A DNA stretch of 39,041 bases from Deltaproteobacteria bacterium. GTDB taxonomy: Bacteria > Desulfobacterota > DSM-4660 > Desulfatiglandales > HGW-15. The translations under genes and the position numbers were made by a program. Below the pieces are notes generated by a model. It had not been told where the DNA came from and ran no database searches. It saw only the letters and a list, made by a program, of their open reading frames with translations. Where the stretch lies: NCBI GenBank assembly GCA_016930835.1, contig JAFGGA010000221.1:1-39041 (forward strand), written 5' to 3'. Positions 803-36,803 of the stretch are shown one piece after another (position 1 is the first letter of the stretch; each line of letters starts with the position of its first letter).

Positions 803-846
803 GATATCCCTCCTCTCTTGCCTAAAATTTTTTAGAATCAAAATTG

Positions 847-977
847 ACATACTCGTAAAAAGTCGTCACCCTGGCGAAGGCCGGTGTCCAGAGCCCATGT
901 AACTCTCTGAAAAGACTGGATTCCGGCCTTCGCCGGAATGACAAAAATACGTATTTTCTGACTTTTTTCGAGATCAT
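847..977. mobile_element. MITE-like element, copy A (131 bp, shortened)
   Basis: The ends form imperfect terminal inverted repeats: left ACATACTCGTAAAAAGTCG at 847, right the complement of a close match ending at 977. It is flanked by near-identical direct repeats, CAAAATTG (839-846) and CAAAATTTG (978-986). The core holds the GGATTCCGGCCTTCGCCGGAATGACA-type palindrome, seen around 919-943. Compared with copies B-D it lacks about 50 bp of the GGACCCCGG-containing arm. The right boundary coincides with the nfeD stop codon. No coding sequence is present, so mobility would depend on a transposase supplied elsewhere (inference). Confidence 0.8.
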
Positions 978-2287
978 CAAAATTTGCTGTTAATCGCTTT
1001 CCTCACCTTAAGCAGCAACCCTTGTATTTCTTCCACTTCCACCTTCTCGTTCGGCTCGATCCTTTCCCTTGATGCGGCCCTCCATAGCTCACCATGAACA
1101 AAGACCTTGCCTTCCGGATCAATCCGCTCTTTGACCACACCCACCTCGCCGATAAGACCCTCCATACCGCTCTGGGGCTTTGAACGATAGGCTCTGAAAG
1201 CCAAAGTCGATACCCCGATGAAAAAACCAGAGATCAAGATAATGGTCGGCGCCATTAACTTGAGGGGAACACCCACATCTTCAAAAAGCATAATGGAACC
1301 TAGGGTGAATGATACCACTCCTCCAATGGAAAGGATACCATAGCTGGTGATCTTGATCTCGGCGATAAAAAGGATGATCGCCAAAACAATCAATAACAGC
1401 CCGGTATAATTAACCGGAAGGGTTTGGATTGAGAAAAAGAAAAGGATAAGAGAGATAGCGCCAATCACACCCGGGAATATGGCACCTGGATGGGAGAATT
1501 CGAAATAAAGCCCGGCCAAACCGATAACCATAAGGAACCAAACAATATTGGGATCGCTGATGACATTCAAAAGCTTATCCCGAAACCCGGGTTGGTAAAA
1601 AATCTTTGTCAGGTTGGTCGTTTGCAGGGTAACCTTTCCAGTGATGAGGGTCACTTCCCAGCCATCCAATTGCGTTAAGAGGTCGTCCATATCTTTGGCC
1701 ACCAGATCAATTACATGGTTTTCAAGGGCTTCATCAGCGGTAATGGATACACTTTCACGGATGGCCCGTTCGACCCACTCCGCATTTCTGCCTTTTTCCT
1801 TGGCGATTCCCCTACCGTAAGAGGCCATATCATTCACGACCTTCTCGGACATGGTCTTCTGGATATCCTCTCCTCCAATGCTGACCGGATGAGCGGCCCC
1901 GATATTCGTCCCCGGCGCCATGGCCGCTACGTGGGCACTCACGGTGATTAAGACACCCGCGGATGCGGCACCCGCACCCGTTGGACTCACATATACGACC
2001 ACGGGGATCTTTGAATTGGTGATGGCTTTGACCATGGTTCGCATGGAAGATCCCAAGCCACCTGGTGTATCCAACTGAACGATAACAAGAGATGCATTGA
2101 CCGACTCGGCCTCCTTGATGCCCCGCGCTAAAAAGGTAGCGCTCCCCGGGCTGATGGGACCGTCCACCCCGATGATCATCACATCATTGGCGGCCGCGAC
2201 CATCGAAGGTGATACGAGCCCCAATAAGCACAAGATGAAAACACCGCTAAAAATACAAAGCCATCCATTCCTTTTTTCCTTATCCAT
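977..2287 (-). CDS. NfeD family membrane-bound serine protease (ClpP-like)
   Basis: This is a full-length NfeD protein of 436 residues. The family is a ClpP-class serine protease fused to membrane helices and an OB-fold domain; characterised archaeal homologues cleave the C-terminus of their stomatin partner. Residues 1-32 form a signal/anchor segment. The protease domain (about 36-210) has the oxyanion-type loop LDTPGG, the nucleophile Ser109 in GAGAASAGV, and Lys149 at the spacing expected for the Ser/Lys dyad. Four to five transmembrane helices follow (about 240-370), then a small beta-rich NfeD domain (about 380-436). The start overlaps the end of the upstream uracil-DNA glycosylase gene by 8 bases, so the two are translationally linked. 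The C-terminus ends exactly where a MITE-like element begins: the final A of the TGA stop codon is the first base outside the target duplication. Confidence 0.93.
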   Translation of the reverse strand: MDKEKRNGWLCIFSGVFILCLLGLVSPSMVAAANDVMIIGVDGPISPGSATFLARGIKEAESVNASLVIVQLDTPGGLGSSMRTMVKAITNSKIPVVVYVSPTGAGAASAGVLITVSAHVAAMAPGTNIGAAHPVSIGGEDIQKTMSEKVVNDMASYGRGIAKEKGRNAEWVERAIRESVSITADEALENHVIDLVAKDMDDLLTQLDGWEVTLITGKVTLQTTNLTKIFYQPGFRDKLLNVISDPNIVWFLMVIGLAGLYFEFSHPGAIFPGVIGAISLILFFFSIQTLPVNYTGLLLIVLAIILFIAEIKITSYGILSIGGVVSFTLGSIMLFEDVGVPLKLMAPTIILISGFFIGVSTLAFRAYRSKPQSGMEGLIGEVGVVKERIDPEGKVFVHGELWRAASRERIEPNEKVEVEEIQGLLLKVRKAINSKF

Positions 2288-8101: not shown

Positions 8102-8129
8102 TTATGGTCAATCGAAAAAACAAGATTTG

Positions 8130-8312
8130 ATGGTCTTGTAAAAAGTCGCCACCCCGGTCCCGTATCAAGTACGGGATGGACTGCGGCCGGGGTCCAGACC
8201 AATATAACTATTTGAAAAGACTGGATTCCGGCCTTCACCTGTCTGCGTGTGGACGCGCACTGGCAGGCCGGAATGACAAAAATGGGTGTTTTTTGTCTTT
8301 TTACGAGATTGT
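8130..8312. mobile_element. MITE-like element, copy B (183 bp)
   Basis: Terminal inverted repeats are ATGGTCTTGTAAAAAGTCG at 8130 and the complement of ACAATCTCGTAAAAAGACA ending at 8312. The flanking direct repeats are CAAGATTTG (8121-8129) and CAAGATTTC (8313-8321), 8 of 9 identical. The interior holds two nested palindromes, a GGTCCCGTATC / GATGGAC-type arm and a CCGGCCTTCACCTG / CAGGCCGG arm. It is inverted relative to copies C and D. It separates the divergent radical SAM and histidine kinase genes. Confidence 0.87.
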
Positions 8313-8389
8313 CAAGATTTCCCTTTTCCCCCTGTTTGATTTATAGTAGAAGCAGATCAGCGCACAATCAAAGGCCGACCTGTATTGAA

Positions 8390-9820
8390 ATGACACCCAA
8401 TCTAATAAAAAACATTCCTGAAGGCAAACAGTTTCGCCTGGTTAAATATTTCGCATTAGCCAGCTTTATTGTTCTGGTCATCTTTAGCTTTCCTTTTTCG
8501 GTCTTCATCTCCCAAAAGGCAAAAGACATCCTGATTGAAAGCTATAAAAATTATGCCTTATTGCTTGGTGAAAACCTTAACCATCAGGTTTTTGTCTATT
8601 TCAGTCTTCCTGTCGTCACGAAATATGGAAGAGTTAAACTCAGAGAAGAAGAGCAACAAAATTTAATGGATCAGGTCATTAGAGATGCGACCCATGGCTT
8701 TAACATTGATGTAGTCAATGTCTATACCGCCAATGGAATAATAGGTTATAGTACCGACTCGAGGTTATTCGGGAAAGAACCGAAAAAAACACAAGGATTT
8801 GAAGAAGCGATGAAAGGGGAGAAGTCGTCGATAGTGCTATCGGATGAAGATGATCTTTGGGGCCTTGAGATAGCAAAATTAGAAGGACGAAAAGTGATCA
8901 GAACGTATATCCCCTTTCACCCGCCTGGAACGGATTTCTTGATCGGTGTCTTCGAGATAGTCCAAGACATAACCGAGCAATATAAGTCCATAACCACATT
9001 TCAATATTATGTGTTCGGCCTCTCCATCCTCATCATGTCTCTCATTTTTTTAACCCTCCTTTTTATTGTTCACAAAGCAGAACAAATTATTCGACATCGA
9101 ACAAAGGAGCAGCAGGAACTGGAAGCCCAATTGCACTTATCGGAACGTCTGGCCTCGATCGGCGAGATGGTCGCGGGTATCTCCCATGAAATAAAAAATC
9201 CTCTGGGGATTATCCAAAGTACCGCCGAGCTGTTGGGACAACTGCCCAATACCGACGATAAAAAGAAAAGGCTTACAAACGTAATCACGGAAGAGACAAG
9301 CCGCTTGAACGAAAAAATAATGGAATTTCTAGACTTTGCCCGACCTCAGGCCCTTAACCTCCAGGAATGCCGTCTGGAAGAGATTATCAAAAAGAACATT
9401 TCCTTTTTAGGCCCTGAGTTGGAAAAAAAGCATATCCGCATAGAAAACAATCTAAACGGCAGGTCCTTTAAAATCCTGGCGGACCAGGAACTCCTCTACC
9501 GCGCCTTTTTAAATATATTTATCAACGCCATACAGGCAATGGTTGGCGATGGCACGATATCGGTACACATTTCCAAAGAAAAAGATGTTTACTTGATTGA
9601 GATAAAAGACACGGGCAGCGGTATCCCGGATAAAGCACTAAAAAAGATATTTAACCCATTTTTTACCACCAAACAAAAAGGCTCCGGGCTAGGGCTCTCC
9701 ATTGTCAAAAAGACTATTGAAGACCATCAGGGAACCCTACGGATTGAGAGCAAAGTGAATGAAGGGACGCTTGTGAGCATTCAATTGCCCAGAAGGCCGC
9801 AAGGGTCTTTCTCTTATTAA
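8390..9820 (+). CDS. Membrane-bound sensor histidine kinase
   Basis: This is an orphan two-component sensor kinase of 476 residues from the ATG at 8390. Upstream in-frame codons fall inside the MITE-like element and are rejected. The first membrane helix spans about residues 20-41 and the second about 206-227. They flank a periplasmic sensor of about 160 residues with a cache-like look (INVYTANGIIGYSTDSRLFGKEP). The kinase core follows: phosphoacceptor His266 in GISHEIKNPLG, an N-box (NIFINAIQAM), DTGSGIPD, and GSGLGLSIVKK. No response regulator is adjacent, so the partner and signal are unknown. The ribosome-binding site is weak. Confidence 0.9.
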   Translation: MTPNLIKNIPEGKQFRLVKYFALASFIVLVIFSFPFSVFISQKAKDILIESYKNYALLLGENLNHQVFVYFSLPVVTKYGRVKLREEEQQNLMDQVIRDATHGFNIDVVNVYTANGIIGYSTDSRLFGKEPKKTQGFEEAMKGEKSSIVLSDEDDLWGLEIAKLEGRKVIRTYIPFHPPGTDFLIGVFEIVQDITEQYKSITTFQYYVFGLSILIMSLIFLTLLFIVHKAEQIIRHRTKEQQELEAQLHLSERLASIGEMVAGISHEIKNPLGIIQSTAELLGQLPNTDDKKKRLTNVITEETSRLNEKIMEFLDFARPQALNLQECRLEEIIKKNISFLGPELEKKHIRIENNLNGRSFKILADQELLYRAFLNIFINAIQAMVGDGTISVHISKEKDVYLIEIKDTGSGIPDKALKKIFNPFFTTKQKGSGLGLSIVKKTIEDHQGTLRIESKVNEGTLVSIQLPRRPQGSFSY

Positions 9821-21149: not shown

Positions 21150-21206
21150 AGGTTGGTTGATAAAAAAACAAACATCGATGCGCATTTCTCAAAAAGATCA
21201 TTTTTG

Positions 21207-21389
21207 ACGATCTTTTCAAAAGTCGGAAAATACGCATTTCTGTCATTCCGGCCTGCCTGTGCGTGTCCGCACGCGGACAGGCGAAGGCCGGAATCCAGTC
21301 TTTTCAGATAGTTACATGGGCTCTGGACCCCGGCTGCAGTCTATCCCATACTTGATACTGGACCGGGGTGACGACTTTTACGAGTATGT
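21207..21389. mobile_element. MITE-like element, copy C (183 bp)
   Basis: Termini are ACGATCTTTTCAAAAGTCG at 21207 and the complement of ACATACTCGTAAAAGTCG ending at 21389. The flanking repeats are CATTTTTG (21199-21206) and CATTTTCG (21390-21397), 7 of 8 identical. Internal palindromes are a long arm around GTGCGTGTCCGCACGC and a second around GACCCCGG and CCGGGGTGA. The length matches copies B and D exactly. It splits the Bat operon between the BatD-like gene and batA. Confidence 0.85.
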
Positions 21390-21421
21390 CATTTTCGACC
21401 TTTGCACAAAAGAAAAAATAG

Positions 21422-23526: not shown

Positions 23527-23724
23527 CAAATTTTGTAACAATTTAGGTTTTTCTAACTCCAAACGATTGGATTCCGCGATCAAGTCGAGGAATGACCGTG
23601 CAAAAATCAGATGTGATCATTTACAGTCGCGTAACCAAAACTAGGCTGGTCATTCCGCGACTTGATCGCGGAATCCATGGGTCTGCGCCAAGTTTTTCAA
23701 AAATCTAAAATGATACCAAATTTT
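23527..23724. repeat. 198-bp palindromic element with AAATTTTGTAAC ends, copy 1
   Basis: Outer inverted ends are AAATTTTGTAACAATTT (from 23528) and, in complement, AAAATTTGGTATCATTTTA (ending 23724). An inner perfect palindrome pairs GGATTCCGCGATCAAGTCG (23572 on) with CGACTTGATCGCGGAATCC. The only other copy here (36414-36803) is interrupted by MITE copy D but has the same net length. It sits between batB and batC in a 355-bp gap that otherwise shows no gene. Confidence 0.82.
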
Positions 23725-36413: not shown

Positions 36414-36803
36414 GAAATTTTGTAACAATTTGGCTCTTTTTAAAACCCAAACATTGATGGTCTCGTAAAAAGTCGAAAAACACGCGTTTTTGTCTTTCCG
36501 GCCTACCTGTGCGTGTCCGCACGCAGGCAGGTGAAGACCGGATTCTAGTTTTTTCAAATAATTCATGGACTCTGGACCCCGGCTGCAGTCTATCCCATAC
36601 TTGATACGGGACCGGGGTGACGACTTTTTACGAGATCTTCAAACATTGGATTCCGCGATCAAGTCGCGGAATGACGGGCAGAAAACAGAAATGACAAGTT
36701 ACTGTTCTGTAACCGAGAACTACATAGGTCATTTCGCGACTTGATCGCGGAATCCATGAATTTGACCAAAGTTTTTCAACACTCTAAAATCATACGAAAT
36801 TTC
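36414..36803. repeat. 198-bp palindromic element, copy 2, interrupted by MITE copy D
   Basis: Ends GAAATTTTGTAACAATTT (36414) and, in complement, GAAATTTCGTATGATTTTAG (ending 36803) match copy 1 at 23527-23724. The interior palindrome, GGATTCCGCGATCAAGTCG and its complement, is kept. The span is 390 bp; removing the 183-bp insert and one 9-bp target duplication leaves 198 bp, the length of copy 1. The right end lies just before the AAGGAG binding site of the PaaK gene. Confidence 0.85.
36457..36639. mobile_element. MITE-like element, copy D (183 bp), nested
   Basis: Ends ATGGTCTCGTAAAAAGTCG (36457) and, in complement, AAGATCTCGTAAAAAGTCG (ending 36639) form a 19-bp inverted repeat with only a few mismatches at the outer edge. 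A perfect 9-bp target duplication, CAAACATTG, flanks it (36448-36456 and 36640-36648). Internal palindromes occur around GTGCGTGTCCGCACGC and around GACCCCGG and CCGGGGTGA. It is the best preserved copy in the window and has no coding capacity. Confidence 0.92.

Follow-up and report, generated by a model that had tools for sequence, protein, structure and literature searches.

The IS66 family of insertion sequences is characterized by GTA- ends; the elements of the ISDol1 group, named after a sulfate reducer, are 1.6-1.9 kb long and generate duplications of 6-7 bp. Duplications of 8 bp have been described for ISPpa7, a member of the IS66 family (PMC3281130), and the ISDol1 group is a named subfamily within the ISNCY set of ISfinder (PMC8147514). 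Among the smaller elements, the ISMac2-related MITEs of Methanosarcina acetivorans are 160-169 bp long and have a partner in the IS1182 family, and nested ('Russian doll') elements were separated by the pipeline of the same study (PMC3852290). The dRS3 repeats of Neisseria, 20 bp in length with the structure ATTCCC(N8)GGGAAT, have been described together with intergenic mosaic elements (PMC3898611).

Here, we analyze a composite of two short repeats, denoted E1 and E2, in a 39,041-nucleotide stretch of a Deltaproteobacteria bacterium genome (the window; assembly GCA_016930835.1, contig JAFGGA010000221.1), the relatives of which are named Desulfobacteraceae/Deltaproteobacteria. We consider it highly probable that E2, a putative IS66-type element, landed first and that E1, a putative IS1182-like element, entered it later, at a site that is hit recurrently.

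Ends, targets and copy numbers of E1 and E2

The consensus ends of E1 are GAYnnnCTCGTAAAAAGTCG. Independently of the target, 38 of the 40 copies checked start with GAT or GAC; at the far end, the last base is almost always C, and the mirror of GAT/GAC is present in most of the 40 copies, with the bases beyond the duplicated target varying among copies. Duplications were scored as exact matches flush with the GAY...RTC ends in 64 copies: 26 of these are flanked by a 6-bp duplication, 7 by a 7-bp duplication and none by a duplication of 8 bp or more, compared with chance levels of 2.6% (6 bp) and 0.8% (7 bp) obtained when the left flank of one copy was paired with the right flank of another. The target pattern is (C/T)AAnnTT(G/A), with 6-7 bp duplications of AAnnTT sites. 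The genome contains 40 long matches to E1, and the 14-nt core of the E1 end occurs 236 times compared to 3 occurrences of the reversed control; the statistics for individual copies refer to those listed and retrieved rather than to a full genome census. At 185 bp, E1 is far below the size that could accommodate a transposase gene. Thus, E1 is a MITE: a short, gene-less element with inverted ends, target duplications and a high copy number.

The termini of E2 are GTAWCA (GTAACA...GATAC in the uninterrupted copy in the window and GTAACA...CATAC in the interrupted one; Table 1). Duplications of 8 bp that are at least 7/8 identical surround 30 of the 39 E2 copies, and when the flank comparison is offset by 1-3 bases, at most 3 copies pass; a chance origin of these duplications is excluded. 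The main type of E2 is 181-185 bp long, and additional types of 53, 73 and 123 bp have the same kind of duplication; the E2 end sequence occurs 164 times in the genome, compared to 3 occurrences of the control. Hence, E2 is also a MITE, short, with inverted ends, target duplications and many copies.

Table 1. Coordinates of E1, E2 and associated features in the window
Feature	Coordinates	Strand	Details
E1 (putative IS1182-like MITE)	36456..36640	+	185 bp, ends GATGGTCTCGTAAAAAGTCG / CGACTTTTTACGAGATCTTC, 18/20 nt complementary
Left 7-bp target duplication of E1, inside E2	36449..36455	+	AAACATT
Right 7-bp target duplication of E1	36641..36647	+	AAACATT
E1 copy, short 133-bp type	846..978	+	target duplication AAAATT
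E1 copy, 185 bp	8129..8313	+	target duplication AAGATTT
E1 copy, 185 bp	21206..21390	+	flanks ATTTTT/ATTTTC
E2 (probable IS66-type MITE), interrupted copy	36422..36795	+	374 bp with E1 and its duplication counted, 182 bp when both are excluded
Left 8-bp target duplication of E2	36414..36421	+	GAAATTTT
Right 8-bp target duplication of E2	36796..36803	+	GAAATTTC, 7/8 match to left
Uninterrupted E2 copy, 182 bp	23535..23716	+	different subfamily, 80% identical
Left 8-bp target duplication of uninterrupted E2	23527..23534	+	CAAATTTT
Right 8-bp target duplication of uninterrupted E2	23717..23724	+	CAAATTTT
Pair of inverted hairpins of E2	36647..36756	+	TGGATTCCGCGATCAAGTCGCGGAATGAC ... GTCATTTCGCGACTTGATCGCGGAATCCA

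These boundaries required small corrections to the exact ends that the sequence-only reading had assigned to both elements. That reading described a 183-bp element at 36457-36639 between perfect 9-bp copies of CAAACATTG. The letters are present as described (36448-36456 and 36640-36648) and the element is real, but the actual duplication is the 7-bp AAACATT because the outer C and G of the 9-bp repeat are the end bases of E1 itself that match the flanks by coincidence; accordingly, E1 extends over the 185 bp from 36456 to 36640. The length calculation, 390-183-9 = 198, holds, and the corrected ends give the same result (390-185-7 = 198); however, the 198 bp that were taken for the length of the element include, in each unit, the two 8-bp duplications of E2, which itself spans 182 bp.

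The E1 copy at 8129-8313 is located just upstream of a histidine-kinase gene (8249-9820 in the window), the upstream region of which it may affect. The GTG start of the listed open reading frame falls within this E1 copy, so that the true start is probably located further inside. The only known structured RNAs detected in the window are 5S and 23S rRNA. Plasmid searches yielded no homologues of the 390-bp unit, and only chance matches were obtained with the E1 end (weak ones) and with the hairpin modules.

Empty sites and the order of insertion

The nesting of one mobile element within the other is borne out by the target duplications of both elements and by empty copies of E2. The comparison proposed at the outset, between the composite from which 36457-36648 were removed and positions 23527-23724, yields 157 identities in 197 columns with a 1-nt gap on each side, so that the equality of the 198-bp lengths is partly luck, resulting from two compensating indels. 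The 23527 copy, considered to be the intact counterpart, is indeed an uninterrupted E2, but it belongs to a different subfamily and, in the E2 trees, falls outside the subfamily of the window copy.

A search with the right E2 arm from the window identified closer copies. E2 elements of the same subfamily that lack E1 and are continuous through the site were found on contigs C142, C107, C45, C132, C127, C170 and C144. The best empty site is that on C132, where an E2 of the same subfamily, with its own 8-bp duplication AAAAATGT, reads GTAACAATTTGGATCTTTTCAAAACCCAAACATTGGATTCC without interruption (also given as CCCAAACATTGGATTCC) and aligns with the window copy base by base around one clean gap. 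Removal of E1 and one copy of AAACATT restores the 182-bp E2, and in the uninterrupted E2 copies the duplicated bases are present exactly once. Thus, true empty sites for the E1 insertion exist in the same genome. Together, the E1 duplications, the E2 duplications outside the composite and the same-subfamily E2 copies without an insertion uphold the order proposed previously, with E2 inserted first and E1 later.

E1 is found at the same position in about nine to ten copies of E2, as would be expected if the 183-bp segment simply belonged to the interior of a larger palindromic element, with the shorter copies derived by deletion. Nevertheless, this interpretation has next to no probability; it is refuted by the existence of empty sites and by the occurrence of E1 at the site in both orientations. 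Most E2 copies lack the segment, the duplicated bases are single in the uninterrupted copies, E1 is also inserted at other E2 sites, and most E1 copies (dozens) lie outside E2, with target duplications of their own.

An artefactual join of two high-copy repeats during assembly would be in line with the many contigs that end within E1 or E2. Such an error appears very improbable given that each of the two elements has matching duplications at its two sides, that the joint is located well inside the contig, and that the same kind of gene pair, dctM and the ligase gene, is found in a genome of the same family (L138). In the latter, about 100 bp separate the two genes and neither element is present; the locus is too diverged to serve as an empty site at the base level. 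Many contigs (such as C34, C35, C83, C103 and C105) start approximately 64 bases inside the E1 end, indicating that the repeats broke the assembly and that recent, nearly identical E1 copies are under-counted.

Recurrent insertion of E1 at one E2 site

The E2 site that is interrupted in the window (C65) is filled by E1 in the same orientation (+) on C101, C196, C19 and C215, and in the opposite orientation (-) on C59, C39, C207 and C123; on C100, E1 occupies the equivalent site of another E2 subfamily, and E1 is also present at other E2 sites. In the tree of 62 E1 copies, which is weakly resolved (38 of the 59 inner branches open), the nested copies are scattered, and a single clade of the site-sharing E1 copies is rejected (p-AU of 0.0002 for the + set, 0.01 for the - set and 1e-6 for both together). 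Filled and empty copies are intermingled in the E2 tree (p-AU 6e-54), with the + copies in one sub-clade and the - copies in another. The non-monophyly of the nested E1 copies and the interleaved E2 tree indicate that the E2 site was hit repeatedly; derivation of all composites at this site from a single composite is ruled out by the tree tests. Thus, this site is a recurrent landing site of E1, with about nine copies in both orientations that result from several independent hits, rather than the record of a single transposition event that the sequence-only reading had seen in it.

Roughly half of the checked copies of the window-type E2 subfamily are occupied at the same place. That E1 is steered to the CCAAACATTGG palindrome of this E2 subfamily as a preferred landing pad, rather than its insertion being merely tolerated in intergenic DNA, seems doubtful, although conceivable.

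Two potential pairs of filled and empty loci were rejected. On C123, E1 lies beside the right arm of E2 and the left arm is absent, a pattern suggestive of a deletion adjacent to E1; the flanks on C144 are similar and its E2 is uninterrupted, but the lack of the left arm on C123 disqualifies the two as filled and empty paralogues. The loci L010 (C39) and L054 (C114) share the flank GAGAAATC, but the similarity soon ends.

Once formed, composites can apparently spread. At a second E2 site, E1 is inserted at AAAGGT, close to the E2 midpoint, in composites on C157 (L026/L087), C75 (L086), C121 (L079) and C138 (L017). Because these are 91-95% identical across the joined E1 and E2, with a supported group (97/82) formed by the E1 copies of three of the four, this composite was apparently amplified as a whole.

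These second-site composites lend some substance to an alternative scenario for the window, under which the composite formed once elsewhere and was copied whole to the present locus by an E2-type transposase, without an E1 insertion here. Over 375 bp, the window copy and that on C101 show 89% identity, and grouping of their E1 copies is compatible with the tree (p-AU 0.24); it is possible that these two composites derive from one composite ancestor. Against this scenario, the E1 copies at the window's site do not form one clade (p-AU 0.0002), the filled E2 copies are interspersed with empty ones of the same subfamily, and the duplication is 6 bp on C101 (AACATT, in a CCCC context) compared to 7 bp in the window (AAACATT), unequal lengths that favour separate hits. 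On balance, we regard the arrival of a ready-made composite as rather unlikely, and infer that E1 was inserted at the present locus rather than brought in with E2.

Candidate parental transposases

A weak profile match led to locus L104 (G004:C244), where 20-nt ends GATAAGTCCGTAAAAAGTCA surround a transposase, with AACCTT/AAGCTT outside, and the L104 protein was then used as the query for relatives. Partners with E1-type ends were identified in related genomes at L119/L132, L120/L130, L122, L124, L131 and L135. The autonomous elements among these encode transposases of 559 aa (L119/L132, with AATATT on both sides) and 582 aa (L120/L130) or, in the case of L131 (MVDB01000012.1), have AACCTT on both sides; L122 and L124, the latter with AAGCATT, are pieces of such elements. 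The autonomous partners are about 1.85 kb long and agree with E1 in the end sequence, the target and the duplication length. At L131 (140-2220), an E1-like MITE directly adjoins the autonomous IS, the two having three AACCTT copies in common.

The partner proteins match PF13751 (DDE_Tnp_1_6) and PF05598 (DUF772) above the cut-off. Their best family is IS1182 (NF033551), with E values of about 1e-50 to 1e-53 and scores of 173-182 bits relative to a cut-off of 270; with the ISNCY profile NF033593, they score 58-64 bits, far under its cut-off of 325, and this family was rejected as the parent of E1. Taken together, the ends, target and duplications suggest that E1 was moved by an IS1182-like DDE transposase.

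The parent of E2 was sought via pairs of E2 end sequences in related genomes. At L142 (G028:C307), E2-like ends that are 2364 bp apart enclose an IS66 DDE transposase (PF03050, 129.7 bits); the ends match those of E2 in 19 of 23 nt, and the element itself lacks a clear target duplication. Upstream of the transposase ORF, and overlapping it, is an ORF for a DruA-like protein (536-1414; PF14236, 124 bits). In another genome (G042), E2-like MITEs (L145 and L146) have perfect 8-bp duplications. The parent of E2 is likely to be of the IS66 type.

In the window's own genome, none of the IS1182, ISNCY or IS66 transposases was found; however, many of the 224 contigs of the assembly end within these repeats and identical IS copies may have dropped out of it, so that the absence is unproven. 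The assignments accordingly draw on matching ends and duplications of autonomous elements in other genomes. Conceivably, the nesting is real but E1 or E2 was mobilized by a different IS family whose ends are similar: the IS1182 scores are below the cut-off, and the 19/23 match between E2 and the IS66 element involves a single element with no visible duplication. We deem such a misassignment unlikely because several autonomous E1-type elements have the ends of E1, its AAnnTT target and duplications of matching length, and the 8-bp duplication and GTA- ends of E2 fit IS66.

Under the preferred scenario, with E2 followed by E1, an IS66-type transposase would have inserted E2 between dctM, a TRAP-transporter gene, and a paaK-like ligase gene, with duplication of 8 bp. 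An IS1182-like DDE transposase, acting on the GAYnnnCTCGTAAAAAGTCG ends and joining them to AAnnTT sites with a stagger of 6-7 bp, would then have placed E1 in the CCAAACATTGG palindrome of E2, duplicating AAACATT.

Comparison with known systems

Nested MITEs and MITEs with an IS1182 partner have been reported already (PMC3852290). The present analysis adds the exact ends, likely parents, targets and empty sites, along with the evidence of a recurrent landing site; for two abundant repeat families, the ends, target, duplication length and likely parent are now defined. The repeated occurrence of E1 at one exact E2 site, with composites that then appear able to spread as units, provides a small, well-bounded example of target choice that can probably be attributed to an IS1182-like transposase.

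Hairpins with GTCATTCC...GGAATCCA arms are present in the window at 36488-36548, 36571-36624 and 36647-36756, so that E1 and E2 have an internal hairpin module in common despite the different IS parentage suggested for them. These hairpins resemble the dRS3 motif and, like dRS3, E1 and E2 are high-copy intergenic palindromes; however, both have ends of their own that dRS3 lacks, and the likeness is one of motif only. E2 is similar to the IS66 family in its 8-bp duplications and in the DDE_Tnp_IS66 domain of the candidate parent, and differs in being a 182-bp gene-less derivative and in the DruA-like ORF of that candidate. The autonomous partners of E1 fit the ISDol1 group at the level of its general description and are unlike ISNCY in their profile scores. 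Like the ISMac2-related MITEs, E1 has inverted ends, no genes and a candidate IS1182-like partner, although it comes from another lineage, has a different end sequence and generates 6-7 bp duplications of AAnnTT that are distinct from the direct repeats of those MITEs. Essentially, the locus consists of two MITEs, one nested in the other and both of generally known kinds, and reflects ordinary transposon biology.
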